Of a stretch of 64,000 nt of DNA, positions 11,882 through 61,379 are shown one piece after another. The stretch spans positions 310,001 to 374,000 of the forward strand of contig NZ_SRWZ01000003.1 of NCBI RefSeq assembly GCF_004804355.1, read 5' to 3'. This stretch comes from Cognatitamlana onchidii. GTDB taxonomy: Bacteria > Bacteroidota > Bacteroidia > Flavobacteriales > Flavobacteriaceae. How positions within the stretch are numbered: the first letter of the stretch is position 1; each line of letters begins with the position of its first letter. The notes beneath the pieces were generated by a model that was given only the letters and a program-made list of their open reading frames with translations, was not told where the DNA came from and ran no database searches. A program made the translations under genes and the position numbers.

Positions 11882-11987
11882 TAAATAATCATTAAAGTAA
11901 TAAAACCAAAGTATAAAGATAAAACAAAGGTCAGTGCTTAACCTGAAAGTTTGTAAGTAAACCTGCTATGGCTCATATACTAGGCCA

Positions 11988-12227: not shown

Positions 12228-12393
12228 ACTAAGTATTAAGAACTGCGTCAAAACAAAAATGGTAACGCAACTGTGTTCCTATCGTCTTTTTGGTGCATAC
12301 GGTCCATAGCCCTTTTAAACAAACATTGTCGTTTTTTTACAATCAAACAACAATCTTACTTTTCATCTTTGCACTATTAAAATACATCAAATT

Positions 12394-42833: not shown

Positions 42834-43940
42834 TTATATCGCATCTGTTTTTTCAAAAGACACTGCATTTTGAATAGTTAACATCAATCGGTCTAACAAG
42901 AAACCTATAATACCTATTACAAACATGGCAACTATAATTTTTGCATTGGAGTCGTTAGCTCCGTTTTGGAATTCTTCCCAAACAAACAACCCTAAACCAG
43001 GACTCTGTGCTAAAAGTTCGATAGCAATAAGTACCATCCAGGCTACAGATAATGTAATTTTTAAACCTGTAAAAATTAATGGTAAAGACGATGGTAATAC
43101 AACCTTAAATACTTTTTGAAAAGGCCCTAACTTTAAAACCTTAGCAACATTAATATAATCTTTATCTACCGTTGAAACCCCCATGGATGTGTTAACCAAT
43201 GTGGCCCACATAGAACACAAACCAACAGCTATAAACGAAATGGTAAATGAACTATCTTCACTAGAATCAATCAACAACGTTTTTACAATCATAAACACTA
43301 ATAAGTACCAAACTACAGGCGATACAGGCTTAAAAATTTGAATAAACCAGTTAAACGCACTTTTAAGCGTTGGACTCAATCCTATAAAAATACCAAGTGG
43401 CACGGCAATCAATAAGGCTAAAAAGAATCCTGCAAATACGGTTTTTAAACTTCTAAAGATTTGATCAACAAACGAAGGTCTACCCGTATAAACAATAGGA
43501 TCTTTACCCTCTGCAACTCTTTTTTCGTTTAATGCAGCCGTTTTTTCAGCAAAAGCAGCTTTATCGGCACTAATTAAGGCATGATCATTTAATAAAGATT
43601 GAAACGATGCCCAAACTTGTGATGGAGAAGGTAAGGTATTGGGTTGACAGCTAATATCTCCCGAAGCTATACAAGCAGCCATTTCATCGGCAGCAGCTTG
43701 CCCCTGCTCTGTAAGCGCTTTGTTAATTTTAAAGTCTGCTTCCGTATTGTAAAGCGTTCTTGCACCTAAATGCCATAATCCAATAAATAATAGAACGGAA
43801 CCAATAGGTACAATAATTTTTCGCAGGAAGTTTTTGTAATCTTCCTTTCCTAGCTTCCCAGTAAATAGGTCTTTAAATGTGCTTAAAAAACCTAAGCCCA
43901 TAAATTTGCTTACTTTTCCTAATGTGACACTTTGCTTCAT
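42834..43940 (-). CDS. nrtB: nitrate-type ABC transporter permease (NrtB-like)
   Basis: A 368-residue inner-membrane permease. After a first TM (about residues 40-58) there is a large periplasmic loop (about 65-160) with two Cys in 'MAACIASGDISCQPN', then the BPD_transp_1 core with 'LALLIAVPLGIFIGLSP' and 'GLKITLSVAWMVLIAIELLAQSPGLG' (EAA loop). Similar permeases in nitrate, bicarbonate and sulfonate systems are shorter; the loop insertion is a Bacteroidota-style feature. Nitrate specificity rests on the binding protein and the Nap/globin context. Confidence 0.85.
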   Translation of the reverse strand: MKQSVTLGKVSKFMGLGFLSTFKDLFTGKLGKEDYKNFLRKIIVPIGSVLLFIGLWHLGARTLYNTEADFKINKALTEQGQAAADEMAACIASGDISCQPNTLPSPSQVWASFQSLLNDHALISADKAAFAEKTAALNEKRVAEGKDPIVYTGRPSFVDQIFRSLKTVFAGFFLALLIAVPLGIFIGLSPTLKSAFNWFIQIFKPVSPVVWYLLVFMIVKTLLIDSSEDSSFTISFIAVGLCSMWATLVNTSMGVSTVDKDYINVAKVLKLGPFQKVFKVVLPSSLPLIFTGLKITLSVAWMVLIAIELLAQSPGLGLFVWEEFQNGANDSNAKIIVAMFVIGIIGFLLDRLMLTIQNAVSFEKTDAI

Positions 43941-44025: not shown

Positions 44026-45420
44026 TTATTGCACAGCTTGGTCTTTGTTACCAATTTTAAAACTGTTAATGTATCCTATCGGATCTTTAGCATCGTAAGT
44101 CGTACCGTCAATGAAATCGGCAGTTGCAGGCTTGTATCCATCGGTAGTTGGGATATCGCTTGCAGGAATGTTTCCTTCTTCCACTAATAACTTAGCTGCT
44201 TTTGTCCAGATATCAGGTCTGTAAATATCTTTGATAGTGTTTGCATACCAATCTGCTGGCTTAGCCTCAGGAATTTGTCCCCATCTTCTCATTTGAGTTA
44301 AGAACCAGATCCCATCAGAATAGAACGGGTATGTTGCATTGTACTTGTAGAATACGTTAAAGTCTGGCATTTCTCTTTTATCACCTTTCTCAAATTCAAA
44401 CGTACCAGTCATTGAGTTTGCTAATACCGCTTCATCAGCACCTACATATTGAGACATTGATAAGATTTTTACAGCTTCAGCTCTGTTTCCTGGCTCATCT
44501 AACCATTTACCAGCTCTAATTAATGCTTTAGTAACCGCAACAGCTGTGTTAGGGTATTGCTCCACAAATTTCTTTGTCATTACAAATACTTTCTCTGGGT
44601 TGTTCTTCCAGATATCGTAGTTGGTAGTAACAGGTACACCAATACCTTTAAAAACCGCTTGTTGGTTCCATGGTTCACCTACACAGTATCCATAAATAGT
44701 TCCTGCTTCAAGTGTAGCTGGCATTTGTGGCGGAGGTGTTACAGATAATAAAACTTCAGCATCAATTTGTCCTTGTACGTTTTCAGCAGTATACATGCCT
44801 GGATGAATTCCAGCCGCCGCTAACCAATATCTAATTTCGTAGTTATGCGTAGATACAGGAAATACCATACCCATTTTAAAGGCTTTACCAGAGTTTTTAT
44901 AATCTTCAATTACAGGTTTTAAAGCCTCAGCTTTAATAGGGTGTACAGGCTTACCATCGGCACCTTTTGGTACATTTGGCTTCATTTTAGACCATACATC
45001 ATTGGATACCGTAATACCATTACCATTTAAATCCATTGAGAATGGTGTTACTAACTCTGCTTGTCGACCAAACCCTGCTCCTGCAGCAATTGGTTGACCT
45101 GCTAACATATGGGAACCATCTAACTGACCATCAATAACGCGGTCTAATACATTTTTCCAGTTTGATTGTGCTTCAACAGAAACAAATAAGCCTTCATCTT
45201 CAAAAAATCCTTTTTCTTTAGCAATGGCTAAAGGTGCCATATCTGTTAATTTGATAAAACCAAATGTTAATTGTGGCTTTTCAATTTCTAAGGTCTTTGT
45301 TGTAGAAGTTTCAGCAGCTGTGTTTTCAGCTATGGTTGTTTTCTTCTCTTTACCACCACAAGCAAATAATACTGCTGCTACGGGTAACATCCAAGTTGTT
45401 CTTTTTAATAGAGCTTTCAT
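44026..45420 (-). CDS. nrtA: nitrate-type ABC transporter substrate-binding lipoprotein (NrtA-like)
   Basis: A 464-residue lipoprotein (signal ending 'LFACGG', Cys21). The solute-binding domain follows NrtA/CmpA: '[28 protein letters not shown]', '[25 protein letters not shown]', '[13 protein letters not shown]' and '[25 protein letters not shown]'. The Trp, Gln and Gly residues that line the nitrate pocket appear to be present. It leads the importer operon and is preceded by the 16-bp palindrome shared with the globin operon and the FNR-like gene. Alternatives are bicarbonate or sulfonate binding; nitrate is favoured by context. Confidence 0.88.
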
Positions 45421-45544: not shown

Positions 45545-45560
45545 TAAGTATTAATACTTA
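45545..45560. promoter_or_regulatory. 16-bp palindromic operator TAAGTATTAATACTTA (nrtA)
   Basis: A perfect palindrome, identical to the one upstream of the globin gene. A TATATTTG box (45569-45576 on the minus strand) lies 8 bp upstream of it, so the palindrome would fall just around or after the transcription start, as expected for a repressor site. Centre 132 bp before the nrtA start. Confidence 0.7.
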
Positions 45561-47109: not shown

Positions 47110-49072
47110 AATTAGCAATTAATTCTTTGATAATATCAGTTTCATCATTATCGTCAATTTGTCTAAATAAAGGAATTTCATCATTTATTATTTCTTCCAT
47201 CCTTTGGATTTTCAAATGCAATCTTGAATTTATGACCTCATCAATGGAATTAGTAGAAACGAAGTAATAGTATTTTGTAATTTGATTATCTGCTAATCCA
47301 ACCCTGTGAATTCGATCTTTTGATTGTAAGAAATTAGAACAGTTGTAATCTCTTTCAAGATAAATTGCATTATGACACCCTTTGTGAAGTGATATAGATT
47401 CTGCAACAGAGAATGGGTTAGCGATAACCACATTAAAATCATTATTATTTGGGTTGTTAAATGCTTTTATAGTTATTTCTCTTTCTTCTTGTGGGATTTG
47501 ACCAATTAGAAGTTTAGATTCGATGTTATTAGCCTTTAAGTATTCTTGTAGTTCAATAGCATTTTGAATAAATATAGTCCAAATAATAACCTTTCCATTT
47601 TCAAGAAAAATATCATTTTGTAAGGTATGCAAGATTGTATTAAATTTTCTTGGAACTTCAAGGTTTGAGTAATTAGTTATTTTATTAAAAAATTCAGAAT
47701 CATTTATAAACTCATCTGTATCAGTTGTGAAAATTGTATTAGGATCAAACTCTCCTGTTAATTCATTGTTTTCCAATGAGTCCTTTAATGTTTTGGAAAG
47801 GAGAGAAGGATTAGTTGCAGCTTGTCTTAACCTAATTAACTTTGCTTTATTTAATATGTCTTTTACTGTTGCTGAACTATCTTCTTTAAAATGTTCGATA
47901 TACTGAGATTCTATGAAGTCATAAATCTCTCTTTGATATGGTTCCATTTCAATTTGAACATAAGTTTCTTCTACAGGTGGAAGATTCAAATCTTCTTTCT
48001 TAATTCTTATAAAATATGGAGAAATATTTTCCTTTAATTCTTGTACACGATTAGAATCTAATGAGCTGTTAGCTGTCATATCTTCTAAATTGTGATAATG
48101 AAACTTTAGTATTTCTTTGAATTTGAAAGGATAAATAAATTTATATAAGTTAAAAATATCTTGATATCCATTTGGCACTGGTGTTCCAGTAAGTATAACT
48201 CTTGATATTGCTTCTTTGGAAATTTCGGTAACACTTTTTCCCCAAACCCCTTCAGGATTTTTAATTCTGTGAGCTTCATCAACAACCACCATAGTTTTGT
48301 TGCGTTTCAAAAAGTCAATAATGTCAGTTTGAAAACGATCTACTCCTCCGTGAAAAATTAGCGATAATTCAGGTGAATTTGGTGAATAAAGGTGCTCTAA
48401 TTTTTTTTCAATGGAAATGTTTGGGTCTCCAGACATTCTGAAAGAACTTGGTTTTACTCCAAAACATTCTTCATATTCATTTTCCCAAGGAGCGAATGAA
48501 GAGAGTGGACCAATAACCAAAAGTTTATCAACGTGGTTTAAATCTTCTTTTGGTAAGCTTTTTAAATATGCATAAGCACCATAAACAATAGATGTTTTTC
48601 CTGCTCCAGGAACAGCAAAATTACAGGAGTTTTGAGCAAAAGCCATATGAAAAGAAGAAAGCAATTGAAGTGGATAAAGTCTTCTTTCCATTTCTTGTTT
48701 TAGAACATTTTGAAACGAGTCAAATTGCTGAACTAATTTGTCATTTTCTTCAAATTCATTATTTCTAATTGCTCTTGCATTTTCACTAAAAATCTCAAAA
48801 TTTTCTTTTTCTTTATGGTAGGTTTCTAATTCAGCTTTTATTGCTTCAGATACAGAGTAATTTATTTCAAATTTTTTAAGTAATCTTTCTATTTCTTGAA
48901 GTGTTTTAATTTGTGTTTCTTCACGAAAAGGAATAACAATAATTTCATTTTCCAATTTATAACCAAGTCTTTTAAATGAAACTAAAAGTCTTTTGTTTTT
49001 CAATAAGGATTCTTCAAAACTATATAAATTGAAAGTGCTTTTTTCATTATTAATATCAATTATTAAAGACAT
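47093..49072 (-). CDS. SNF2-family (DEAD/DEAH) helicase of the defence-like cassette
   Basis: A 659-residue superfamily 2 helicase. Residues 1 to about 130 form a non-helicase N-terminal region with a helical stretch. Motif I is 'NFAVPGAGKTSIVY' (K159), motif II 'VVVDEAHRIKNPEG' (DEAH 265-268), motif III 'LTGTPVPNGYQDIFNLYKF'. The C-terminal helicase lobe has 'KVIIWTIFIQNAIELQEYL', 'VVIANPFSVAESISLHKG' and motif VI 'QSKDRIHRVG'. The SNF2 type usually translocates on double-stranded DNA without unwinding. The start overlaps the upstream stop by 1 nt (TAATG). It probably moves along unmodified DNA and recruits or activates the DUF3883 partner; this is inference. Confidence 0.85.
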   Translation of the reverse strand: MSLIIDINNEKSTFNLYSFEESLLKNKRLLVSFKRLGYKLENEIIVIPFREETQIKTLQEIERLLKKFEINYSVSEAIKAELETYHKEKENFEIFSENARAIRNNEFEENDKLVQQFDSFQNVLKQEMERRLYPLQLLSSFHMAFAQNSCNFAVPGAGKTSIVYGAYAYLKSLPKEDLNHVDKLLVIGPLSSFAPWENEYEECFGVKPSSFRMSGDPNISIEKKLEHLYSPNSPELSLIFHGGVDRFQTDIIDFLKRNKTMVVVDEAHRIKNPEGVWGKSVTEISKEAISRVILTGTPVPNGYQDIFNLYKFIYPFKFKEILKFHYHNLEDMTANSSLDSNRVQELKENISPYFIRIKKEDLNLPPVEETYVQIEMEPYQREIYDFIESQYIEHFKEDSSATVKDILNKAKLIRLRQAATNPSLLSKTLKDSLENNELTGEFDPNTIFTTDTDEFINDSEFFNKITNYSNLEVPRKFNTILHTLQNDIFLENGKVIIWTIFIQNAIELQEYLKANNIESKLLIGQIPQEEREITIKAFNNPNNNDFNVVIANPFSVAESISLHKGCHNAIYLERDYNCSNFLQSKDRIHRVGLADNQITKYYYFVSTNSIDEVINSRLHLKIQRMEEIINDEIPLFRQIDDNDETDIIKELIANYAQRT

Positions 49073-50490
49073 TATATGCTTTTGTTTATTTGATAGCCAA
49101 TTTGTTGTATCCTCTTAGTTTTGTTTTGAACATCTTTGATTTCATCGTCTGGAATTTGTTCAATATCAATGGCTTCCATTAAATTTATAATATGGGACAA
49201 AACCCTTGTAGGTGATTTTTTTTGAAGTGAATCAAAAACTTTATTCCCGAGCTCTTCTACAAGCTTTTGAACAGATTTAGAGTTAAAATTTTTATTGTTC
49301 TTATTTATTGATTCAAATGAATCTAAAGCTTTGTTTATTAACTTTTCGGGTTGATCTTGAGATTGCTTATTTCGTAATTTAGTATAATGATTATCTACAT
49401 TTTCGTCTAAATGCTTTCCTACGTCTTCTTTAAACTTGCTATCAATACTATTTAAATGAGCTTCTAAATTTTTAATATTAACATCAATTTTAGGCTCATC
49501 AAAAGAGTTTGTTATTTTTCTATGCTCCTTTTGAAATGATTCCCAAATCTCCCTATTTCCAAAAAAATGGTTTTGTTTTTGCCCTTGCGCTACATATCTA
49601 AATTTTTCATTTTTATACTTTATTCTGATTAAATCATAACATAATGTTTTTAAGTCATCTACATCATCATCACGATAGTCATCAAAAGCTTTTTTAGAAT
49701 TTTCACCGTAAAAGTTAATTAGCCAAGAAGTTAATCCTCTGAATTGCTCTTCTCTTTCATCCAAAGTAGTGTAAATACCATTGTAATCAAACCAATCTAA
49801 GTATTCATCCATTGAATTCATTACAGCTAGAGTATATTCAATATCATTTACATTTTTTATATTCTTATAATTACCAATCCATTCATAGATTTTTTTAATT
49901 GCTTTTTTATCAACCGTATCAGGAGAGTAAAATGACTTCCCGCTCAATTGCATATATAAACTCTGAACTTTCAAATAAATCTCGATTGGATTGTAATCCA
50001 ATTTTCTCTCTTCTCCTAATTGATATTTAGTCTCGAATTTCTCAATTTCTAAAGGATTTCCTTCATATTCAACTGGTAACACAACAGCTTTGAAATAATC
50101 TATATGGTCAATTTTATTCAGAAGCATTGCTCTCCTGTTTCCATCTATAATTATCCCATCTTCAGTTATTATTCCAACTTTTTCTTGTCCAATTTTTTTT
50201 AAGCTTGCAAGAGTTTCTTTGTTCTTTTGTTCTTTTGAATCCCATAACAAATCTTCAATCAATTTTTTGCCAGCATCACTTTCAGCATCTATTTTTAAAT
50301 TCTGATTTTCGTAAGATTTTGTTCGGCTAAGAATTCTTCCATTATATTTATTATATATAAGATAATTTAAAGGAATTTGATAAACATCCATTGGCTCTAA
50401 CTTGTCTTTCCAAGGAATATCAAGACGACCAACAGGTTTTTCATTTTTAGTTATTCTTTTTATTTGTTGGATTCTAACTTCTTTACTCAT
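49072..50490 (-). CDS. ParB-like nuclease-domain protein of the defence-like cassette
   Basis: A 472-residue protein. Residues about 33-125 resemble a ParB/Sulfiredoxin-type N-terminal domain: 'MDVYQIPLNYLIYNKYNGRI' followed by 'GIITEDGIIIDGNRRAMLLNKI' (DGNRR 116-120), the usual nucleotide-binding box. The rest is helical and unrecognised, with a run of Lys/Asn/Asp-rich sequence (about 330-430). ParB-like folds in defence systems act as NTPases or nicking nucleases (for example in phosphorothioate-linked systems). Here it is encoded between the methyltransferase (2-bp gap) and the SNF2 helicase (TAATG overlap), so it is an obligate member of the unit. Specific role unknown. Confidence 0.75.
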   Translation of the reverse strand: MSKEVRIQQIKRITKNEKPVGRLDIPWKDKLEPMDVYQIPLNYLIYNKYNGRILSRTKSYENQNLKIDAESDAGKKLIEDLLWDSKEQKNKETLASLKKIGQEKVGIITEDGIIIDGNRRAMLLNKIDHIDYFKAVVLPVEYEGNPLEIEKFETKYQLGEERKLDYNPIEIYLKVQSLYMQLSGKSFYSPDTVDKKAIKKIYEWIGNYKNIKNVNDIEYTLAVMNSMDEYLDWFDYNGIYTTLDEREEQFRGLTSWLINFYGENSKKAFDDYRDDDVDDLKTLCYDLIRIKYKNEKFRYVAQGQKQNHFFGNREIWESFQKEHRKITNSFDEPKIDVNIKNLEAHLNSIDSKFKEDVGKHLDENVDNHYTKLRNKQSQDQPEKLINKALDSFESINKNNKNFNSKSVQKLVEELGNKVFDSLQKKSPTRVLSHIINLMEAIDIEQIPDDEIKDVQNKTKRIQQIGYQINKSI

Positions 50491-50492
50491 AA

Positions 50493-52199
50493 TTATTTCT
50501 GATTGGCAATGGTAGATATTTTATTTATGGCATATAATGAAAATAGCTGTTTTAAAGGAACTTTATTCTTTTCTGTAAAAACAACTGTTCCGTTTTGTTC
50601 AAAAAGTATATCAGGGCATTTTACTTTTTCTAATATTTCTTGGATTTGATCAACTAACTCTGTTGGTTGTTCTAAGTTATTAATTGGAACTTGTTTTTCA
50701 TACATTTCTTGAAGTTCAGATTTAGTCCCAATTTTTTCAGAGAATCCGTTATTGATTATATTTAAAAATTTCTTACCACTTTTAGACTTCTTAATTAACT
50801 TCTCTATTTCTATAAAATATCCATCTTTTACTTTTTGTATTGGAAAGCCTTCTCCTGTACCATATTGAATTGAAGTAAACCACTTGCCCTTAGTTTTACT
50901 GTTTTGATCTATATCGTAATTAGATAGTGTTACTGTAAGATTTCCATCTTTTATTGGATGTCTTCTAAATCTTGCTCCTTTTTTCTTAACAGGAGGTTTA
51001 TCAAATTTTTTTCTTTTGTAATTGTTTAAACTTTTTACACCTTCTAGGTTAGGCTTTGTATTTACAACTAATTCATTAGGCTTTTCTAATTTAAGTGTTT
51101 CAATAACAGTTTTTGCCAAAGCTCTACTTACTGGACAACATACTGCATTACCCACTAAACGCCACTTGGTATTTTCGCTCCCTAAAAATTGGTAAGTTAT
51201 TGGGAATCCCATTATTAAAGCTGCTTCACGGACTGTTGGTAATCTATATTCGCCATTACCTTTTCTTCTTATTTCTGATTTATATATTATTGATTCTCTT
51301 GAATTGGCAATTTTCGTTGCTGTTATTGTGCGGCTAGGATTATCGTTGTTTTCAGGGAATGACATTCTTCCCATATAAGGATGATTCTGTTTCCAAAATC
51401 TAGAAAATTTCCATTCAACTTCATATATCCCTGTATCATAGAAATGATCCGTTATTTCATTTTTGGGTATTGAAATTTTGTAATTTATATCACTAATTTT
51501 ATTTGTTGATTTATGCTCGTAAGGATTGGGAAAATTTTCTTTTATTTCTTTTATAGATCGATAAATAGGTAAACTTCCTTTATTTTTTGGACTTCTATGA
51601 GTCTTTTTCGGAATTATAAGTTTTTTCTTCTTTATAATTTCACCAGAAATAACTCTTTTTCGAGCTTGTATTGATCCGTAATCAGCAGAGTTTACAATTG
51701 TAGTGTTTTGGTATAAATTAATTGCTATTTTGTTAGGACTTATTTTGTGAGAATTAGCCCAGTCAGACAATCCTAAATCTTTAAATGTATACTCGGTTTG
51801 AAGATAGCGTTTAGAGTTTACAACATTTTCCATAAACCAAGCTTTAAGTGTAGAGTTTGGCTTATGTTTTTTTACCGCTACAATTTTTAAAAATGTTTCT
51901 GTAAGTTTTACTCCAAGAGATTTATCTGCTTTTCCAGATTTATTTGAACTTGAAAAGCTTACACAAGGAGGACTTCCCAAGATAATGTCTGTATCTGGGA
52001 TTTGTTCTATTTCTTCAGTAGAACTTTCAAAGTCAAGTATATTTTTTGGATTACATTCTAGTTCGAAATTATGATTATAAGTTTCAACAGCAGGTTTCCA
52101 TTGGTCGTATCCAGCAACAATTTTATAACCTTGTTGTCTAAAACCTTCTGAAAATCCACCAGCTCCACAAAAAAAATCTATTACAGTTAGTTTATTCAT
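50493..52199 (-). CDS. C5-cytosine DNA methyltransferase with C-terminal extension
   Basis: A 568-residue methyltransferase. Motif I is 'DFFCGAGGFSEGF' (residues 8-20), motif IV 'GSPPCVSFS' with catalytic Cys79, motif VI 'MENV', motif VIII 'QARKRVI', and motifs IX-X 'PSRTITAT' and 'GNAVCCPVSRALA'. The target recognition region (about 190-300) should define the site. Beyond the core, about 180 residues (from 385) form an extension with a basic segment 'KKKGARFRRHPIKDG' and a beta-rich unit, not seen in plain Dcm enzymes. First gene of the four-gene cassette; it would protect host DNA by 5-methylcytosine. The site specificity cannot be read from sequence. Confidence 0.9.
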   Translation of the reverse strand: MNKLTVIDFFCGAGGFSEGFRQQGYKIVAGYDQWKPAVETYNHNFELECNPKNILDFESSTEEIEQIPDTDIILGSPPCVSFSSSNKSGKADKSLGVKLTETFLKIVAVKKHKPNSTLKAWFMENVVNSKRYLQTEYTFKDLGLSDWANSHKISPNKIAINLYQNTTIVNSADYGSIQARKRVISGEIIKKKKLIIPKKTHRSPKNKGSLPIYRSIKEIKENFPNPYEHKSTNKISDINYKISIPKNEITDHFYDTGIYEVEWKFSRFWKQNHPYMGRMSFPENNDNPSRTITATKIANSRESIIYKSEIRRKGNGEYRLPTVREAALIMGFPITYQFLGSENTKWRLVGNAVCCPVSRALAKTVIETLKLEKPNELVVNTKPNLEGVKSLNNYKRKKFDKPPVKKKGARFRRHPIKDGNLTVTLSNYDIDQNSKTKGKWFTSIQYGTGEGFPIQKVKDGYFIEIEKLIKKSKSGKKFLNIINNGFSEKIGTKSELQEMYEKQVPINNLEQPTELVDQIQEILEKVKCPDILFEQNGTVVFTEKNKVPLKQLFSLYAINKISTIANQK

Positions 52200-52740: not shown

Positions 52741-52773
52741 CAAAAAACCAGCCTTTTGGTATAAAGGCTGGTT
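52741..52773 (-). terminator. terminator of the globin-cytochrome operon
   Basis: Perfect 11-bp stem AACCAGCCTTT (52746-52756) with AAAGGCTGGTT (52763-52773). On the minus strand it is followed by a T run, 46 bp after the cytochrome gene. Confidence 0.9.
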
Positions 52774-52818: not shown

Positions 52819-53526
52819 TTATTCTTCTAAGGTTTTAAGCCATGCTTCTTGAGATAAGGCGATGTATTTTTTGTTGGTTCCGTAAGGGTCGTCGCCACCA
52901 TCAAAATAGCTTTGTATGAGTTTCATAGGAATGGTATCTTTTAACTTTTCAGGTACTTCGTACCTGTGGTTACCGTGAAAATCATGACATTGAATACAGG
53001 TAGACCACTGCTCATCTGCAATTAATTGTTTATGCGATATATCTAACGGATCATTTTCAACGTCTAGCTCTTGGTGGCAATTCATACAGTAATTGATATT
53101 TGCTACAGATACGCGTTCGTTTTCATGTTCGGTATGGCAAGTAATACAGGTAGTGGCATCAATATGTTGCACCGCTTCTTTAAATCGAGGCTCAGAAAAT
53201 CGATAGGTTGGATGCCTATCGTTAGGACGATCATGACATTGCAAACAATTATCTACGGTTACATCTTGGGTTCCAAAGTCTACACCTGTGCTTCTTGCTC
53301 CTACGGCATGCGCTATATTAGATTGTACTTGCTGCAGCAAATTACCTTTGGCATCGGCATGACATGCAAAACAATTAAGCTCTTGATGTCCTGTATTCAT
53401 AGGACCAATAGACACATATTCCTCAGTAGCTTCTAAGGTAAACATATAGAATAAAGATACGCCTACCACCACCCCTATAATGCCTCCAATAACTTGTCTT
53501 TTACGTAACGGACTTACTTTAAACAT
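52819..53526 (-). CDS. membrane-anchored pentaheme c-type cytochrome
   Basis: A 235-residue protein with one N-terminal TM helix (about residues 11-30) and five CxxCH heme sites: CFACH, CLQCH, CITCH, CMNCH and CIQCH. Extra His residues between them can serve as distal ligands, as in NapC/NrfH- and cytochrome c3-type proteins. It faces the periplasm and could carry electrons from quinol or from the cassette's reductase to a periplasmic acceptor. Last gene of the globin operon, 18 bp after the flavoprotein reductase gene. It is not the classic 4-heme NapC/NirT, as the CxxCH spacing differs. Confidence 0.87.
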   Translation of the reverse strand: MFKVSPLRKRQVIGGIIGVVVGVSLFYMFTLEATEEYVSIGPMNTGHQELNCFACHADAKGNLLQQVQSNIAHAVGARSTGVDFGTQDVTVDNCLQCHDRPNDRHPTYRFSEPRFKEAVQHIDATTCITCHTEHENERVSVANINYCMNCHQELDVENDPLDISHKQLIADEQWSTCIQCHDFHGNHRYEVPEKLKDTIPMKLIQSYFDGGDDPYGTNKKYIALSQEAWLKTLEE

Positions 53527-53544
53527 TCGGTTTTATGCTTTGGT

Positions 53545-54573
53545 TTATAATTCAATAACTACTTTTTCGCTTACCGGATAACTAACACAGGTTAGTATAG
53601 CGCCTTCTGCTACTTCGCTCTCTGGTAGTAAATGGCCGTCAACCATTTTAACCTCACCTTCTACACATTTGGCTTTGCAGGTTGAGCACATCCCCGATCT
53701 GCAAGAATATGGTATCGTTATATTATCAGACATGGCTTGCTGTAAAATAGACTTATCACCACGTACTTTTATAGTGAACGCTTCATTATCCTGTTTTAGC
53801 GTCACATCACTCAATAAATTTTTACCCGTTACCTTAATAGTTGGCGCTTTAAAAACCTCAACTTTAATCTTATCTCTGGTGATGCCATTTTCTTTTAGAA
53901 TTTCCTTAACCTTTTCCATATAACCAAAAGGACCGCAAATCATGTACACATGATCTTTATACTCAAGGTTATGCATAATCATAATACGATCTACAACTAG
54001 TCGTGTTGCTAAACCTGGGTGGTAGTTATCCTTATAAGTTTTGTTTGATGAGATAATATGTTCTGCCTTAAAATGATCCGGATAGGCTTTTTCTAAAGCT
54101 TTTATTTCATCATGAAAAATAATAGAGGCTTCACTTTGATTGGCATAAATAAGGAGCACTTTAGAGTTCTTCTCTTCTGTTAATACCGATTTTACTATAG
54201 AAAACATAGGGGTTATACCACTACCTCCTGCAAACAGCACATATTGTTTTTGAGCTTTACTATCTGGGGTAACACAAAACGATCCTGCTGGAGGATCTAC
54301 CTTAAGTTTGTCTCCTGACTTTACAAAATCATGAACGTAATTAGACACCAACCCCTGTTCTACTCGCTTTATAGTAATTTTTAATTCTTTATCGGTATAC
54401 GGGTTACTGCTAAATGAATAGGCCCGCTTATGGGTAACCCCCTCAATTGGAACGTTTATGGTTAAAAATTGCCCGGGTTTATATTTTAACTTTCTAAAAA
54501 AGTTACCATTTTTAAAACAAATACTTACGGCATCATCTGTTTCTTTAATTATATCTTTTACCAATAACTTCAT
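53545..54573 (-). CDS. flavin/2Fe-2S ferredoxin-type oxidoreductase
   Basis: A 342-residue fusion of an FAD-binding reductase (about 1-100: 'KRAYSFSSNPYTDKE' holds the RxYS flavin motif), an NAD(P)-binding domain (about 105-230: 'LFAGGSGITPMFSIVK', 'MICGPFGYMEKV') and a C-terminal plant-type [2Fe-2S] domain with 'CRSGMCSTCKAKC' and a final Cys in 'ILTCVSYP'. It resembles PaaK/HCR-type reductases that feed electrons from NAD(P)H to a partner. In this operon the partner may be the globin (NO or O2 chemistry), the b-type membrane protein or the pentaheme cytochrome. No signal peptide, so the enzyme should be cytoplasmic. Confidence 0.88.
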   Translation of the reverse strand: MKLLVKDIIKETDDAVSICFKNGNFFRKLKYKPGQFLTINVPIEGVTHKRAYSFSSNPYTDKELKITIKRVEQGLVSNYVHDFVKSGDKLKVDPPAGSFCVTPDSKAQKQYVLFAGGSGITPMFSIVKSVLTEEKNSKVLLIYANQSEASIIFHDEIKALEKAYPDHFKAEHIISSNKTYKDNYHPGLATRLVVDRIMIMHNLEYKDHVYMICGPFGYMEKVKEILKENGITRDKIKVEVFKAPTIKVTGKNLLSDVTLKQDNEAFTIKVRGDKSILQQAMSDNITIPYSCRSGMCSTCKAKCVEGEVKMVDGHLLPESEVAEGAILTCVSYPVSEKVVIEL

Positions 54574-54580
54574 TCTTCAT

Positions 54581-55063
54581 TTATTTATAATAAAACACCA
54601 TGACTATATGGAACAGCATGAGTATAGTTACTATGATAGATAAGGCCACATGAGCAATCATCCATCCTTTAAATAAGGCATCACTATTATTTTTTATGAC
54701 ATCAAGGTTAAGATATCCTAACAGGGTGTTTGAGAAGAATATATATGATAATAGCAGTAAATAACCATAACCCAAGGCCATGCTATGGATATAAAAGAAC
54801 AACGGACTTACTGCCCCCAACCATTTATGGATGGTTTGCATGTTCATGGCATGTTTTCTCCATTTACCTATAGTTCTTGTAAGCGTTAGCACCCACTGAA
54901 AGGTAATAAGAAGGGCTAAAGCTAAACCAGACCAGCGTTTGTACATTTGTTGCTCTTGCAATATATATAGCCATTCCCACTCTAACTTTAAAACGTATTG
55001 AAGCAGAAAAGCCACGAGTAATACCAATCCTAGTACTGTAGATTTGTTAGTACTTAAAACCAT
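54581..55063 (-). CDS. small membrane protein, possible b-type cytochrome
   Basis: A protein of about 160 residues with four hydrophobic helices. The frame opens at a TTG (55126), but the ATG at 55063 gives 'MVLSTNKSTVLGLVLL' and is preferred. Histidines in 'MQTIHKWLGAVSPLFFYIHSMALG' and in 'AHVALSIIVTILMLFHIVMV' are placed as for bis-His heme b between helices, resembling ferric-reductase-like or cytochrome b561-type proteins. It precedes the flavoprotein reductase by 7 bp and may anchor it or pass electrons across the membrane. Family assignment is uncertain. Confidence 0.65.
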   Translation of the reverse strand: MVLSTNKSTVLGLVLLVAFLLQYVLKLEWEWLYILQEQQMYKRWSGLALALLITFQWVLTLTRTIGKWRKHAMNMQTIHKWLGAVSPLFFYIHSMALGYGYLLLLSYIFFSNTLLGYLNLDVIKNNSDALFKGWMIAHVALSIIVTILMLFHIVMVFYYK

Positions 55064-55159
55064 AAATAGTGATGATTTGTAATTTAATAGTTGTAATCCC
55101 TCCCATTGCCAACAACATAAAAGCAATGGAAGTTAGGATTACAACCTGAACACTAAACT

Positions 55160-55972
55160 CTATTTTATTGCAACAAGGTGCTTCATTGTTTCGTAAGATG
55201 ATAGCTTTTTCACACTATCTAAAAAGACCTCGGCTGTGGGCAAATAATTTCCTTCTGCAGGCCATTTATCACCAATTTCTGGTTTTTCGCTGTCTTTAAA
55301 GTTTTCAATTTCATCTAAGTATTCCATGTAAATATCAACGGTACCCTTAGCATAAGAATTTAAAACAGCTACGGTTTCTTTATAGGTTAAAGAATCTTTG
55401 GGATATTGCCAGGTGGTTGCTCCCATAACATCTCCTAATTTCCAGTCGGATTTTGCGGTTTGTGGATGGTCGTTATGACACGTTACACAGGCCCCGGCGC
55501 TTGCTAAATCGGCAAACATAGCGGTGTGTAATTTTTGGTCTTCGTCGTAAAAAAACTGTGGTTTTTGATCTTCTTTTATTTGGTTGAAAAGTTCGGCTTG
55601 TTTGCCTTCAAATTTATTGGCGGCATTTACAGGGAAATCAGACCCCAAGTACAAACCAAGAGGCACAGGGCTTTTCCTAATACTTGTGGCTACACCTCTT
55701 AAAAATAAGGCTGGAAGCGGGCCTGCCTCAACATCATCTTTTCTCCAATCTTCATCAAACTTCATCCCTTGCTTTTTACCCTTTCCAACTATAGCTTTAG
55801 TATATAATGTTCTGGTTACATCGTTCTCCTTAGACACCATTTCTAAAACTTCCTCGACGGCAAAAGCTTTTTCTTCTGCCTCCGAAGCTGCTTTTTCCTC
55901 TGGTACCCCACCACAACCATTTAATAACATAACACCTGATCCAACTAATATTGTTTTTAAAATACGCTTCAT
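55160..55972 (-). CDS. Tll0287-like (DUF3365) heme lipoprotein
   Basis: A lipoprotein of about 270 residues; the ATG at 55972 starts 'MKRILKTILVGSGVMLLNGCGG' with lipobox Cys; the longer frame to 56008 begins with TTG and is less likely. The domain matches Tll0287-like periplasmic PAS-type heme proteins: 'FLRGVATSIRKSPVPLGLYLG', then one CxxCH in 'GACVTCHNDHP' and 'DVMGATTWQYP'. Such domains bind c-type heme and are used as redox or gas sensors. Encoded between the globin and the membrane protein, it may sense NO/O2 or take part in electron transfer. Start is 20 bp after the globin stop. Confidence 0.85.
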   Translation of the reverse strand: MKRILKTILVGSGVMLLNGCGGVPEEKAASEAEEKAFAVEEVLEMVSKENDVTRTLYTKAIVGKGKKQGMKFDEDWRKDDVEAGPLPALFLRGVATSIRKSPVPLGLYLGSDFPVNAANKFEGKQAELFNQIKEDQKPQFFYDEDQKLHTAMFADLASAGACVTCHNDHPQTAKSDWKLGDVMGATTWQYPKDSLTYKETVAVLNSYAKGTVDIYMEYLDEIENFKDSEKPEIGDKWPAEGNYLPTAEVFLDSVKKLSSYETMKHLVAIK

Positions 55973-55991
55973 AGTCTTCTTTTTTAATTTA

Positions 55992-56405
55992 TTAATAGGC
56001 TGCGTCAATCATAACATCGGCCATAGTTCCATATACATCTGCCCAGGCTGTTTTTACTTCTGGAGTAAAAGCATCACCTAAACCAGCTTCTAAAGTGCCT
56101 AGTAGTGCAGCACCCACTGTTTCGTAATGATAAGCTTCCACCTTATACTCAACATGTCGCTTGCCTAAATCTTTTAATACAGGAATTAATGCATCTAGGT
56201 TACTAAGTCCAGCTACAGCCGCTCCAAGCATGCTCATTAGTTTATTACCTTGAACCTTCATAGCCTCATCACTACTTGGGAATAATGGTTTTATTGCAGG
56301 ATCTAATTCAAATAACTTAGAATAGAATATTTCTGCAGCTGCAGGGGCTATAGGTTTTACTTTTTCAAATGACTCTTGTACAAGTGTAACTGTTTTTGCT
56401 TCCAT
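55992..56405 (-). CDS. single-domain globin
   Basis: A 137-residue haemoglobin of the flavohaemoglobin/Vitreoscilla-like type without reductase domain. It begins 'LVQESFEKVKPIAPAAAEIFYSKLFELDP', with the CD-region 'LFPSSDEAMKVQGNKLM' and proximal His in 'LGKRHVEYKVEAYHYETVGAALL'. Such globins bind O2 and NO and often detoxify NO when reduced by a partner. The flavin/2Fe-2S reductase three genes downstream is a plausible partner. First gene of the five-gene operon, preceded by the perfect 16-bp palindrome and a -7 box TACATTTG. Confidence 0.92.
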   Translation of the reverse strand: MEAKTVTLVQESFEKVKPIAPAAAEIFYSKLFELDPAIKPLFPSSDEAMKVQGNKLMSMLGAAVAGLSNLDALIPVLKDLGKRHVEYKVEAYHYETVGAALLGTLEAGLGDAFTPEVKTAWADVYGTMADVMIDAAY

Positions 56406-56439: not shown

Positions 56440-56455
56440 TAAGTATTAATACTTA
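56440..56455. promoter_or_regulatory. 16-bp palindromic operator TAAGTATTAATACTTA (globin operon)
   Basis: Identical to the palindrome upstream of nrtA. A TACATTTG box (minus strand, 56463-56470) lies 7 bp upstream of it and the globin ATG 34 bp downstream. The position just around the expected transcription start suggests repression. Confidence 0.75.
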
Positions 56456-56599: not shown

Positions 56600-57349
56600 T
56601 TAAGTATCTAAAAAGTAATTATGATCGCTTATTTCCTGTTTAAGCATACGCACATCGTTAATACCAATCTTTTTTCCTTTTGCTGTAATTAAGTCTTCTT
56701 TTTTTAATGCCGAAAACACGCGAATAACTTGCTCTTCTGTAGTACCTGCGTAATCTGCATATTCTCTTCTACTTAATGGTAAATTTAAGTACCCATTTAA
56801 GTCTCCAAACTTTCTATGAATGTACAGCAAGGAATCAATAACACGCTCTCGAACCGTCATTTGTGAAATGGACTTCACCTTGTTCTCGCTTCGGTTTAAT
56901 TCATTGGCATAAAACAACATCATATCATAAGCAAACTTAGGAGTTTCAAGTAATTTACTCTGTAAACTATCTTTAGAAAAATAGCAAAGTACAGAGTCTT
57001 GTAAAGCAATAGCTCCAATAGAATAATACTCTTCTGTTCCAAATCCACGATGTCCAATAATTTCACCTTCTTTGGCAAAACGTACTATTTGTTCTCTACC
57101 GTTAATACCTGTTCTAAATACCTTAACGGTACCTTTTAAAATAAAAAACAACCCGTTAACAGGTGCGCCTTCCATAATAAATTGTTGCCCTTTTTTACAC
57201 TTTAAAGTACTCTTGTTTTTGGTGAATTCTGAATCTGAAAGTGTAGGTAAACTGCGTTTAATAAGACAATTATCATTCATACAAGCCTCACAAGACACAT
57301 TGGTTTTTGCTTTAGATTTAGTACTAATATAAGGGCTAGTTGAAGTCAT
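56600..57349 (-). CDS. FNR-like Crp/Fnr-family regulator with Fe-S cysteines
   Basis: A 249-residue regulator. N-terminal cysteines C20, C23 and C28 plus C122 in 'QDSVLCYF' correspond to the four [4Fe-4S] ligands of E. coli FNR (C20, C23, C29, C122), so oxygen or NO sensing by a cluster is likely. The cyclic-nucleotide-type beta barrel lies at about 45-135, the dimer helix at about 140-165, and the HTH at about 195-230. The recognition helix reads 'TTEEQVIRVFSAL', keeping the Glu and Arg of FNR but with Ile where FNR has Ser, so its DNA site should differ from TTGAT-N4-ATCAA. Its own promoter carries a near-perfect copy (one mismatch) of the palindrome found at the nrtA and globin promoters, pointing to autoregulation. 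Confidence 0.88.
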   Translation of the reverse strand: MTSTSPYISTKSKAKTNVSCEACMNDNCLIKRSLPTLSDSEFTKNKSTLKCKKGQQFIMEGAPVNGLFFILKGTVKVFRTGINGREQIVRFAKEGEIIGHRGFGTEEYYSIGAIALQDSVLCYFSKDSLQSKLLETPKFAYDMMLFYANELNRSENKVKSISQMTVRERVIDSLLYIHRKFGDLNGYLNLPLSRREYADYAGTTEEQVIRVFSALKKEDLITAKGKKIGINDVRMLKQEISDHNYFLDT

Positions 57350-57365
57350 AAATTTTAAACTAAAT

Positions 57366-57373
57366 CAAAAATA
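57366..57373 (-). promoter_or_regulatory. candidate -7 box of the FNR-like gene
   Basis: The minus strand reads TATTTTTG, overlapping the end of the palindrome by 2 bp, 17 bp before the start codon. Regulator binding would block this box. Confidence 0.45.
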
Positions 57374-57387
57374 AGTAATAATACTTA
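57372..57387. promoter_or_regulatory. palindromic operator TAAGTAATAATACTTA (FNR-like gene)
   Basis: One mismatch to the perfect palindrome at the nrtA and globin promoters. Centre about 30 bp before the regulator's start codon. Confidence 0.65.
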
Positions 57388-57490: not shown

Positions 57491-58711
57491 CTACTGCTTC
57501 TTATAACGTAATTTCCCAAGTTCAATACCTATAGCTGTTTTGGCTAAAACAGTAAATACGAAGGCACCTAATGCCCAAATACCCAGCGTAACGCCTATCT
57601 CAATACCTGTGGGCGTATATTCTGCAATTTTACCATAAGGTCCTGGGATAAAACCAGGAACGATTAAACCAAAGCCTTTTTCTATCCAAATAGCTATAAA
57701 TAATATAAAGCAACAGAAATATAAAACCTTAAAATTATTCCTTAATTTATGGAAGGTTAATAATACAGTCGCTAACACATTTAAAGGAATAGCCGTCCAT
57801 ATCCATGGTAATAAAGCGTTTTTACCATGCAATCCAAAGAACAAATAATAGGCACTTTCACTATGATGCGTCGGTGCATAAAACTCTTTAAACAACTCAG
57901 ACACCAACATTATAAGGTTAATTTGTGCTGCAACAGTAACCACCATTGCTATTTTTTTTATGGTTTTATCCTGAATTTTAAACTCGGTAAAGTTTCTTAT
58001 AATGGCCAAAACCAGAATAATTAGTGCGGGTCCTGCAGCAAAAGCTGATGCTAAGAAACGAGGACCTAACAACGCATTATTCCAAAATGGTCTTGCCTGC
58101 AAGCCTTGGTATAAAAAAGCCGTTACCAAATGAATCCCTACGGCCCAAAACACCGATAAAATAGCCCCAGGAACATACACACTCTTTTTAGACTCCTTAC
58201 CTTGATAATGTCTAAATAAAATGTAAAACGGAATAGTTATGTTTAAGAACAGATAGCCATTAAGCACTAATACATCCCATGTAAGCATGGAGTTAGGAAA
58301 GTTAAACACGCCAATTCCGGGTATCATATGCCACAATACTGACGGTCCGCCCATATCGGCTACAACAAATGCTAAACACATTATTAAGGCAGCTACAGCT
58401 AAACCTTCACCTATTAAAACAGCTTGCTTAAAATCGACATCTTTCAGTACATAGGTAGGCATAACTAGCATCACTGCTGCTGCGGCCACTCCAACTAAAA
58501 AGGTAAAGTTAGAAATATATAGCCCCCAACTTACGCGGTCTGTCATCCCTGTTACACTCAAGCCTTCATCTAACTGAATGGAATAACAATACATTCCTAC
58601 CAGCATGATAAAGGTTAACGCCGCCATCCATAAATGATAGCGCTTAGAACCATGCGTTATGGCGTCTAAGCTGTCTTTTACTAAACTTCTAAAAACTCTT
58701 AATCTACTCAT
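57491..58711 (-). CDS. NrfD/PsrC-family quinol-interacting membrane protein
   Basis: A 406-residue integral membrane protein with about nine to ten TM helices, NrfD/PsrC family: 'GMTDRVSWGLYISNFTFLVGVAAAAVML' near the start and 'SNFTFLVG'-type helix pairs. These subunits exchange electrons between quinone and a Fe-S partner. Encoded directly after the Fe-S protein at the end of the nap operon, it should anchor that partner and oxidise menaquinol for NapA or, in some ACIII-like complexes, also pump protons. It stands in for NapC/NapGH, which are absent here. Last gene of the operon. Confidence 0.88.
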   Translation of the reverse strand: MSRLRVFRSLVKDSLDAITHGSKRYHLWMAALTFIMLVGMYCYSIQLDEGLSVTGMTDRVSWGLYISNFTFLVGVAAAAVMLVMPTYVLKDVDFKQAVLIGEGLAVAALIMCLAFVVADMGGPSVLWHMIPGIGVFNFPNSMLTWDVLVLNGYLFLNITIPFYILFRHYQGKESKKSVYVPGAILSVFWAVGIHLVTAFLYQGLQARPFWNNALLGPRFLASAFAAGPALIILVLAIIRNFTEFKIQDKTIKKIAMVVTVAAQINLIMLVSELFKEFYAPTHHSESAYYLFFGLHGKNALLPWIWTAIPLNVLATVLLTFHKLRNNFKVLYFCCFILFIAIWIEKGFGLIVPGFIPGPYGKIAEYTPTGIEIGVTLGIWALGAFVFTVLAKTAIGIELGKLRYKKQ

Positions 58712-58749
58712 GTAACTGTATATTGTACGTTTCGTTTTTTATGATTTGG

Positions 58750-58842
58750 ACACCTGCCTGCCGGTAGGTAAGTTTTCCATTCCAAGTCCTTGCTCGTATC
58801 CCGCTGTGGGCTTTCCTTTGCAATCCCTAACAAGGGGTTATC
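58750..58842 (-). repeat. candidate structured intergenic element, copy 2
   Basis: On the minus strand the segment reads 'gttagggat', then 'ggaaagcccacagcggg', and ends with ACCTACCGGCAGGCAGG, which folds into a 6-bp stem. It shares 'gttagggat' and CCGGCAGGCAGG with the copy at 52583-52670. It lies inside the nap operon, between the Fe-S protein and NrfD genes, and is read in the sense direction, so it will be in the mRNA. Confidence 0.55.
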
Positions 58843-58932
58843 CGATGTTTTGTGCTTATTCCTTAAACTGTTTATTTATTTAATCAAAACCTAACCGATT
58901 AAACGATTATACAATTCAACACGCCACCTTAT

Positions 58933-60063
58933 CTAGTCCATAAAATACCAGAACTTTGGTTCTGTTCCCAGATCTTCTTTTAATCTAAATACTTTCTTAT
59001 TCTCTAAAACCCATCTAATCGTACTATTTGGGTCTAGTAAGTTTCCAAAAATTCTTGCTCCTGTAGGGCAAGCTTCTACGCAAGCTGGGTTTTTTCCAGC
59101 TCTAGAACGCTGCACACAGAAAGTACACTTTTCCATGACGCCCTTTTTACGCATGCGGTTACCTAAATAATGCTGATTATGGTTAACCTCAGCTTCAGGA
59201 ACTTCTGGCTTACTCCAGTTAAAGCGTCTACCATCATAAGGACAAGCGGCCATACAGTAGCGGCAGCCCACACACCAATCGTAATCTACTACTACCAAAC
59301 CATCGTCTTCTCTCCATGTAGCCTGCACGGGACAAACATTTACACAAGGTGGGTTATCGCAATGGAAACACTGTGTTCCCATATAAAAATGCCCTTCTGC
59401 AGGTACTTCGTGATAATAATTATCGTCGGCTTCATCAAAACTAAATCCGTTACCATCCTTCATTTCATGAATTCTAATGTACTGCATCTGCGAATTTCTA
59501 TCTTGGTTGTTTTCCTCAACACAAGCATTTACACAGTCCATATATCCTTGGCATTTAGAAATATTAAAAGCATAGCCAAACAACACATCTTCTTCTGCAT
59601 TTTTAGAAGACATACTAATAGTTTTTCCAGTTCTTAACTGGTAAGAACGCACCAATCTGTTTACTGTTGCTTCTTTCTCCTTATCCGTCATCAGTTTATA
59701 GTTGCCCTTAAACTGTTCCTCCCAATCTATTTGCGCTTTTTCCTTGGCCTCATCACCACTTATTACACTGCACGACGTACTCACAGCTCCGGCTCCAATT
59801 AACAAACTTGCTGTTAATTTTTTAAACGCAGAACGTCTGTCCATTTTTACATCAAACACTTGATCAAAACCATCTTTAACACGCTCCTCTCCTATTGAGG
59901 CATTTATGGCTGCTTTTGCAAATTCTTCATCAGACAGTTGTTGTTGCTCTGAATGTGCACCGCCACAACCGCCAGAAGTTTTTCCGCAAGAACAAGATTT
60001 ATTAGATGCTTTTGGTTTGGTACCTAGGTTTAATGAAAACCATTTTTTGTTATTGCTGCTCAT
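58933..60063 (-). CDS. four-cluster Fe-S protein of the Nap operon with internal Tat-like signal
   Basis: A 376-residue 4Fe-4S dicluster-type protein. Residues 20-37 carry a Cys/Gly-rich segment, then 'DRRSAFKKLTASLLIGAGAVS' at about 75-95 is a twin-arginine signal-like segment placed unusually far from the N-terminus, as in Bacteroidota 'Tat-variant' oxidoreductases. The four cluster sites are 'CQGYMDCVNAC', 'CFHCDNPPCVNVC', 'CVGCRYCMAAC' and 'CTFCVQRSRAGKNPACVEAC'. The relatives NrfC, DmsB and PsrB pass electrons between NrfD-type anchors and catalytic subunits. In this operon it probably links NrfD to the cytochromes and NapA. Starts 1 bp after the tetraheme cytochrome gene. Confidence 0.9.
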   Translation of the reverse strand: MSSNNKKWFSLNLGTKPKASNKSCSCGKTSGGCGGAHSEQQQLSDEEFAKAAINASIGEERVKDGFDQVFDVKMDRRSAFKKLTASLLIGAGAVSTSCSVISGDEAKEKAQIDWEEQFKGNYKLMTDKEKEATVNRLVRSYQLRTGKTISMSSKNAEEDVLFGYAFNISKCQGYMDCVNACVEENNQDRNSQMQYIRIHEMKDGNGFSFDEADDNYYHEVPAEGHFYMGTQCFHCDNPPCVNVCPVQATWREDDGLVVVDYDWCVGCRYCMAACPYDGRRFNWSKPEVPEAEVNHNQHYLGNRMRKKGVMEKCTFCVQRSRAGKNPACVEACPTGARIFGNLLDPNSTIRWVLENKKVFRLKEDLGTEPKFWYFMD

Positions 60064-60064
60064 A

Positions 60065-60694
60065 CTATTCTCTTTCTTTTACTTTTTGGGTATTAAAGCG
60101 TGCTGGCCATTTACTCTCAAAATGTGGTTTATGAGGGTTATGACAGTTTACACATGTCATAGAAGCTCTTGGTGGTGCCCAGCCGCCAATACGTTTACCA
60201 TGCGCCCCACCTTTCCAATCTTCAAACTGTTTGGTATGGCACTGGTTACACAAATTGTAACTGTTATTAAAGTCTATCTGCTTCCCTGTTAAACTCCTTA
60301 AATTGTCCATATTATCTGGATTATGACAGGTGATACAGTTCATGGTATTTTCGTTAGCATGTACCAGTTTTATATCCCAATGCGCCTTTTTTACATCCTT
60401 ACTTTGCATTTTATGCAACGGTTCTGTGTGACATTCTGTACAAGCATAAGATCTTATTTGTCCTTTTCGCTCAGGAATTAAAAACGTGTGTCCGCCTTCA
60501 GTAATTTCAATAGTCTCCATACCTTCAAGATATTTCTCTGAAGATAAAGATGTCCCTTTATAATGTTCACTTTCAGCTTCAATACGCTCGCTTACACCAT
60601 GGTATTCGCCTTCGCCATGCTTACATGAAAAAAGCAATAGTAAAAAAGCAAAACCAAAACATAAATGCCTCATAATATCTTTATTGTATTTCAT
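60065..60694 (-). CDS. tetraheme c-type cytochrome lipoprotein
   Basis: A 209-residue protein with a lipoprotein signal (ending 'LLFSC') and four CxxCH sites: CTECH, CITCH, CNQCH and CVNCH, of cytochrome c3/NrfB type. The start at 60694 overlaps the upstream gene by 14 bp; an alternative ATG at 60673 gives a cleaner signal peptide. It should be periplasmic and carry electrons between the NrfD/Fe-S module and the NapB-like protein or NapA. Confidence 0.87.
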   Translation of the reverse strand: MKYNKDIMRHLCFGFAFLLLLFSCKHGEGEYHGVSERIEAESEHYKGTSLSSEKYLEGMETIEITEGGHTFLIPERKGQIRSYACTECHTEPLHKMQSKDVKKAHWDIKLVHANENTMNCITCHNPDNMDNLRSLTGKQIDFNNSYNLCNQCHTKQFEDWKGGAHGKRIGGWAPPRASMTCVNCHNPHKPHFESKWPARFNTQKVKERE

Positions 60695-61376: not shown

Positions 61377-61379
61377 GTG

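Follow-up and report, generated by a model that had tools for sequence, protein, structure and literature searches.

A conserved five-gene globin and cytochrome operon of Flavobacteriaceae as a candidate transmembrane electron-transfer module associated with nitrate use

Introduction

What task would bring together a globin, a membrane protein with heme-ligand histidines, an NAD(P)H-type reductase and two c-type cytochromes in one transcription unit? This question is raised by a 64,000-nucleotide stretch of the Cognatitamlana onchidii genome (Flavobacteriaceae; contig NZ_SRWZ01000003.1, positions 310,001 to 374,000), which was analysed at its full length and is termed the window below. Five open reading frames (ORFs) on the minus strand are packed within positions 56405-52819 with intergenic gaps of 19, 96, 7 and 18 bases. 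They encode, in order of transcription, a single-domain globin, a lipoprotein of the Tll0287 type (hereafter Tll), a small integral membrane protein, a reductase and a pentaheme cytochrome (Table 1). An earlier note on this DNA placed the five genes in a single transcription unit bounded by a palindrome and a terminator; all five ORFs were found where it had put them, and both bounding elements are present. The best overall explanation is that a transmembrane electron-transfer module and a globin act together in nitric oxide (NO) defence during nitrate use, which we hold to be right or wrong with about equal probability. The chain that would carry electrons across the membrane as far as the pentaheme cytochrome is the firmest part of this explanation and is very probably correct.

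Conservation of the operon core

Relatives were gathered in one scan of a genome collection with the membrane protein. It yielded 69 loci, almost all of which carry Flavobacteriaceae names (Algibacter, Tamlana, Maribacter, Zobellia, Flavivirga, Polaribacter, Aquimarina, Flavobacterium, Flavicella and other genera). The genes for Tll, the membrane protein, the reductase and the pentaheme cytochrome occur in this order in every locus, and pairwise distances among the four proteins are correlated at 0.84-0.91. A 640-kb replicon of Flammeovirga kamogawensis (Cytophagales) carries hemA, globin, DUF3365, membrane protein, ferredoxin reductase and cytochrome c3 genes, so that the five-gene order is the same; its homologues are 38-59% identical to the operon proteins and have all heme-ligand motifs. 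Conserved order in all 69 loci and recurrence in another order of Bacteroidota indicate that the gene arrangement is not due to chance. Scattering among relatives, which the earlier note had named as counter-evidence, was not seen, and its question whether the genes keep together in other Bacteroidota is answered by the 69 loci for the core and by Flammeovirga for the five-gene order. The hemA gene (glutamyl-tRNA reductase; L170:9521-10783) opens the Flammeovirga operon, which thereby has its own heme supply.

A natural gene fusion provides a second line of evidence. In a divergent genome of the family (G1194), one protein of 571 amino acids combines FAD, NAD and [2Fe-2S] domains, a membrane helix (residues 352-370) and a pentaheme domain, and its gene is followed by those for Tll and the membrane protein, with no globin gene within the 19.5 kb read. 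The fusion implies that reductase and pentaheme cytochrome work together and fixes their topology, with the nucleotide side in the cytoplasm and the hemes in the periplasm. Because it occurs without a globin, it also identifies the core as a transmembrane chain for electrons from NAD(P)H to the periplasm, which strengthens the full electron path that the earlier note had proposed.

The membrane protein is present beyond doubt in 10 of 149 sampled genomes of the family. Among 395 genomes of the phylum its profile gave just two weak matches beyond its own genome, and among 395 genomes of the class the pentaheme profile matched its own genome alone; since it took other searches to find the copies in Flammeovirga and G1194, absence from these genome samples is weak evidence.

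Components of the proposed electron chain

The membrane protein contains two H-x13-H pairs (H79/H93 and H138/H152), and all four histidines are invariant in 70 sequences; the pairs are also present in Flammeovirga and G1194. It was described in the earlier note as a small bis-His protein. The heme-ligand histidines were recognized correctly, while the two invariant pairs point to two heme sites rather than one. A di-heme b protein with a core like that of NADPH oxidases (NOX) and ferric reductases is therefore proposed from these sequence features. Profile PF01794 (Ferric_reduct) reaches E 0.051 and 14.1 bits, not above its cut-off of 28. A predicted five-helix model (pLDDT 72, pTM 0.54) has SpNOX among its structural matches (23-24% identity, Z 8.7, rmsd 3.6, 115 residues aligned), which other four-helix bundles equal, and a Foldseek search of the model against the Protein Data Bank (PDB) gave nothing at E below 0.001. 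PDB sequences likewise showed no significant match to the membrane protein or to Tll in sequence and profile searches.

The reductase consists of an FAD domain, an NAD domain and a C-terminal [2Fe-2S] domain in a PaaE-like arrangement, with all three Pfam matches above cut-off. The PaaE model matches at 4.3e-76, yet below its equivalog cut-off, and the protein is also similar to the reductase portion of flavohemoproteins of the NO-inducible kind (2e-43). The pentaheme cytochrome has an N-terminal transmembrane helix (residues 12-30), exactly five CXXCH motifs and matches to Pfam families of the cytochrome c3/c7 type. Six further histidines (47, 105, 134, 165, 184 and 187) are invariant, enough for bis-His ligation of all five hemes, which suggests a carrier rather than a catalyst.

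In the chain proposed here, NAD(P)H would reduce FAD and [2Fe-2S] in the cytoplasmic reductase. The 160-residue protein, with its two b hemes stacked so as to span the membrane, would take over the electrons and hand them to the membrane-anchored pentaheme cytochrome, the direction of flow being presumed. The likeness of the membrane protein to the NOX/ferric reductase core also allows for an enzyme whose acceptors outside the membrane would be oxygen, superoxide-related species, ferric iron or heme, while the globin would handle oxygen, and hemA at the head of the Flammeovirga operon would suit such a role. However, the membrane heme of NOX meets oxygen directly, whereas here a conserved pentaheme carrier comes next, and the genes that share the operator described below concern nitrate and not iron. 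We consider this alternative very unlikely.

Heme proteins on the two sides of the membrane

Tll matches PF11845 with 34.2 bits (cut-off 24.1) and carries one c-type heme motif, CVTCH, at residues 162-166; CXXCH is present in all 70 sequences. Its best structural match is Tll0287 itself (5b82; Z 7.5, rmsd 4.4, 138 residues aligned). In the 70 sequences, cysteines occur only in the lipobox and the CXXCH motif and none lies at the place of an axial ligand; in the G1194 homologue CXXCH holds the only cysteines. Residue C20 was considered as a heme ligand and dropped, as it is the lipobox cysteine that G1194 lacks.

The family has been renamed sCache_heme in a 2026 preprint (PMC12889525), in which a stand-alone, Cys-ligated member binds NO weakly and a Cys-less signalling member holds NO and releases it slowly. 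The operon protein is Cys-less by its ligands, like that NO binder, and stand-alone by its architecture, so that it may plausibly offer an accessible, NO-binding heme. In the proposed scheme the pentaheme cytochrome would pass electrons to the c heme of Tll, and NO or nitrite would be the presumed final substrate.

NO binding by the Cys-less signalling member would equally suit a sensing device, in which the Tll heme would detect NO or the redox state in the periplasm and signal it by way of the chain. The operon encodes no kinase, chemoreceptor or other output domain, though, and a [2Fe-2S] reductase with five hemes exceeds the needs of a sensor. Such a device is highly improbable.

The globin matches the globin part of the NCBIfam flavohemoprotein model PRK13289 (4.2e-24). 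Its distal pocket is formed by TyrB10 (Y28), GlnE7 (Q52) and LeuE11 (L56) with HisF8 (H84), residues that are retained in at least 60 of 62 aligned globins. This is the pocket of NO dioxygenases such as Hmp. By these residues the globin is of the NO-dioxygenase type, with a predicted activity: it would remove NO by dioxygenation, or by anaerobic reduction, and may be re-reduced by the reductase that also feeds the membrane chain. It is the single globin found in the C. onchidii genome.

The globin gene is the first gene in 59 of the 69 loci. In seven Aquimarina loci a fused double globin is encoded nearby on the opposite strand in place of the operon globin, and in three loci no globin was found within the stretch read. 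Globin distances track those of the core proteins less well (correlations of 0.57-0.70).

This pattern bears on a split flavohemoglobin, in which the reductase would mainly reduce the cytoplasmic globin and the membrane and periplasmic cytochromes would merely drain or supply electrons. The likeness of both proteins to the respective parts of flavohemoproteins argues for it, as do the adjacency of globin and core in 59 loci and the co-regulation of the globin where it has moved (the Aquimarina double globin). A studied precedent exists in the narK-bjgb-flp-nasC unit of Bradyrhizobium japonicum, where NO arising in nitrate assimilation is detoxified by a flavoprotein together with a single-domain globin (PMC4724949). 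Against this stand the G1194 locus, which keeps the reductase fused to the pentaheme domain along with Tll and the membrane protein and has no nearby globin, the weaker distance correlations of the globin, and the C-terminal [2Fe-2S] domain, which is foreign to flavohemoglobin. A split flavohemoglobin is thus unlikely, and a transmembrane module with an associated globin is preferred.

Globins vary further among the relatives. The Aquimarina double globins form a cluster of 291-296 residues (L075, L079, L081, L083, L084, L086 and L087) that ends in PWWKFW or PWWKVW, and four of the seven genes have the operon palindrome in front of them. Globins of deep branches (L080:8651, L088:8562, L089:8646, L090:8564 and L170:10792) begin with a short basic, hydrophobic stretch (e.g., MLKFLKNLVKK) that could bind the membrane. 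Directly before the operon globin, two loci encode a second, divergent globin (L088:8206-8619 and L090:8202-8609) that lacks the proximal HisF8 and may not bind heme in the usual manner.

Regulation and association with nitrate use

The operon is preceded by a perfect palindrome of the form AAGTA-N4-TACTT, whose exact 16-bp version occurs at only three places in its own genome, namely before nrtA, the globin gene and an fnr-type regulator gene. In 1.33 Mb of relative loci AAGTA-N4-TACTT is present at 123 sites, while other spacers give 1-19 sites and permuted half-sites 1-13. Of the 123 sites, 108 are immediately upstream of the fnr-type gene, of the globin or Tll gene, of nrtA or narK, of a porin gene or of the double globin of Aquimarina. 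The fnr-type gene lies upstream of the operon in 56 of the 69 loci, and its product has C20, C23 and C28 in 57 of 57 sequences and C122 in 50 of 57. A 5-4-5 geometry is that of FNR/HcpR sites (PMC1274295). This geometry and the autoregulatory placement suggest that the FNR-type regulator is the putative binder of the palindrome. In the main lineage the operon would then be expressed together with nitrate uptake through this iron-sulphur regulator. At the nrtA and globin promoters the palindrome seems to be immediately preceded by what we take to be the Bacteroidota -7 box (TAnnTTTG); at the fnr-type gene the box seems to follow it directly. If so, a palindrome on or beside the core promoter would suit a repressor.

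The neighbouring genes point to nitrate as well. The nrtA cluster (c6) adjoins the operon in most relatives, with NrtABCD downstream of the operon in most loci. Upstream, depending on the locus, lie nap genes (the case of the window), nrfHA together with genes for cytochrome c maturation, nirBD and narK, molybdenum cofactor genes, or a NasA-type reductase with a nitrite reductase-like protein; apart from nap, nrt, NasA and this last protein, the names were assigned by reading the sequences. Among the 149 sampled genomes, NrtA is present in all ten operon carriers (Fisher P 1e-9), as is an assimilatory NasA-like enzyme, whereas NapA and NrfA are each missing from two carriers and G110 has neither. 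The shared operator at nrtA and these counts indicate that nitrate uptake and assimilation, rather than respiration, are the constant partners of the operon. The earlier note had linked an NO or nitrite role to nitrate respiration; the tie to nitrate use stands, and it is not specifically one to respiration.

Nitrate respiration also enters into a further alternative, in which the operon would donate electrons to periplasmic Nap or Nrf as an NAD(P)H-driven substitute for the quinol route. Such a donor would fit the window and several relatives, in which nap genes lie immediately upstream, and Flavivirga-type loci, in which nrfHA and genes for cytochrome c maturation do. The carriers without NapA or NrfA speak against it, however, and the operon is absent from 21 of 29 genomes with NapA. 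The nap cluster also has its own NrfD/DsrO-type membrane genes. This alternative is quite unlikely, and a Nap accessory role was dropped on account of the two carriers without NapA. A role of the reductase as donor to NasA was likewise dropped. The NasA of the C. onchidii genome is encoded about 20 kb from the operon and has fused NAD(P)H-reductase-type domains of its own (Pyr_redox_2, Rubredoxin_C and BFD), which makes feeding of the assimilatory nitrate reductase by the operon reductase unlikely here.

Several features of the surroundings were recorded in addition. In the window, the nap cluster (57491-63707) encodes NrfD/DsrP- and DsrO-like membrane and iron-sulphur proteins and one more multiheme protein instead of NapC or NapGH. 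A lineage-specific island (46129-52199) between operon and nrtA encodes a C5 DNA methylase, an unknown 472-residue protein, an SNF2-type helicase and an NOV_C/Mrr-like protein, and looks like a restriction or defence system; in many relatives nrtA directly follows the operon without it. Locus L022 encodes a 1173-residue NasA with fused NirB-like reductase, Rubredoxin_C and BFD domains (11166-14687, minus strand) that adjoins a nitrite/sulfite reductase-rubredoxin fusion of 478 residues. A second terminator at 56595-56573 sets the five-gene operon apart from the upstream fnr-type gene. The hairpin between the Tll and membrane-protein genes recurs with altered sequence in a subset of relatives and might fix the ratio of the first two genes to the remaining ones.

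Table 1. Features of the operon and its surroundings. Positions are those of the window, except for the fusion gene (locus L174).
Feature	Position	Strand	Remarks
Single-domain F-type globin	55992..56405	-	137 amino acids, first gene; Pfam Globin 3.7e-20
Tll0287/DUF3365 (sCache_heme) lipoprotein	55160..55972	-	PF11845 4e-08
Integral membrane protein	54581..55063	-	160 amino acids, two H-x13-H pairs
NAD(P)H reductase	53545..54573	-	342 amino acids; FAD_binding_6, NAD_binding_1, Fer2 (Pfam)
Membrane-anchored pentaheme c cytochrome	52819..53526	-	Five CXXCH, one transmembrane helix
Palindromic operator of five-gene operon, TAAGTATTAATACTTA	56440..56455	.	Sequence search
Intrinsic terminator of operon	52746..52773	-	11-bp stem
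Hairpin between Tll and membrane-protein genes	55064..55159	-	About -32 kcal/mol
Crp/Fnr-family regulator	56600..57349	-	FNR-type Cys; HTH_Crp_2
Second palindrome copy, before fnr-type gene (autoregulation)	57372..57387	.	Sequence search
Third palindrome copy, before nrtA	45545..45560	.	Sequence search
NrtA-like nitrate-binding protein, ABC transporter	44026..45420	-	SsuA/NrtA type; same regulon
NrtB-like permease	42834..43940	-	TIGR01183 ntrB 2.5e-40
NrtC/D-like ATP-binding proteins (two)	41899-42744 and 41063-41887	-	TIGR01184 1.3e-79 and 2.1e-95
G1194 reductase-pentaheme fusion	L174:10713-12428	-	Single membrane helix joins the two parts

Function and significance

The most likely task of the operon would be to clear NO formed as a by-product of nitrate or nitrite use. 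The C. onchidii genome has NapA, NasA and NrfA, so NO could arise in this way. Copper nitrite reductase was not found in it, and its heme-copper enzymes are of the caa3 and cbb3 types only, with no known heme-copper NO reductase. An organism that uses nitrate and has no obvious NO reductase must dispose of NO in some way, and the operon is a good candidate for this sink. Heme-copper proteins of 742-753 residues in some carriers resemble quinol NO reductases by size, and no NCBIfam model confirmed them. Several observations weigh against an NO role. The pentaheme cytochrome, with ligands enough for five bis-His hemes, resembles a carrier more than a catalyst, the model of the membrane protein is of middling confidence, and stand-alone sCache_heme proteins have been assigned redox rather than NO-sensing roles (PMC12889525). 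The Flammeovirga and G1194 loci have neither nitrate genes nor an exact palindrome in the stretches read, which suggests that the core need not concern nitrogen oxides. Taken together, the NO role stands at or just short of an even chance.

A bolder reading is that the split NOX-like di-heme core, [2Fe-2S] reductase, pentaheme cytochrome and heme-Cache protein are the parts of an undescribed class of transmembrane NAD(P)H:periplasmic-acceptor oxidoreductase. Such an enzyme would need no heme-copper proteins to reduce NO or nitrite on the outer side of the membrane, while the globin handles NO inside, which would give two-sided clearance from one reductase. This reading is tentative and on balance somewhat doubtful. 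Under the preferred explanation, a stand-alone NOX-like membrane core would provide an NAD(P)H-driven route for electrons over the inner membrane to periplasmic hemes, and the operon would be a Bacteroidota answer to NO leaking from nitrate use. For the genome studied and some relatives, in which no heme-copper NO reductase was seen, it offers a concrete NO-sink candidate with an operator and a regulator. Stand-alone Tll0287/sCache_heme proteins also gain an operon context and partners.

Comparison with known systems

No description of the five-gene composition was found in open-licence literature, although one could exist elsewhere; within that literature the statement of the earlier note that it knew of no described system of this composition was borne out. 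The closest precedent is narK-bjgb-flp-nasC, in which a single-domain globin and a separate NAD(P)H flavoprotein are also tied to nitrate uptake and assimilation. That unit lacks the membrane di-heme protein, the pentaheme cytochrome and the Tll0287 lipoprotein. Its flavoprotein also feeds NasC, whereas NasA in the genome of the operon has its own fused reductase domains. It is regulated by NasS-NasT rather than by the proposed FNR-type regulator and palindrome, and it includes a nitrate reductase, of which the five-gene operon has none.

The individual components have better-known counterparts. Flavohemoglobin (Hmp) and Vitreoscilla-type single-domain globins share the globin fold and the NO-dioxygenase pocket residues with the operon globin. 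Unlike in Hmp, globin and reductase are separate chains, and the reductase carries a [2Fe-2S] domain and has a membrane partner. Tll0287 and other sCache_heme proteins share the PF11845 domain and the CXXCH motif with the operon lipoprotein, which differs from the redox-type Tll0287 itself in having no axial cysteine ligand and from the family in its long C-terminal helical region and its place in an electron-transfer operon. NapC/NrfH-type quinol cytochromes have an N-terminal membrane anchor and a periplasmic multiheme domain like the pentaheme cytochrome, which matches the NrfH model TIGR03153 far below cut-off (23 bits against 134.2) and appears to draw on the heme b protein and NAD(P)H reductase instead of quinol. 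Members of the NOX/ferric reductase superfamily, such as SpNOX, have two H-x13-H pairs for stacked hemes and an FAD/NAD dehydrogenase donor in common with the operon. In the operon, membrane part and dehydrogenase are on separate chains (separate genes in all 69 loci), an extra [2Fe-2S] domain is present, and electrons are apparently passed on to a multiheme cytochrome.

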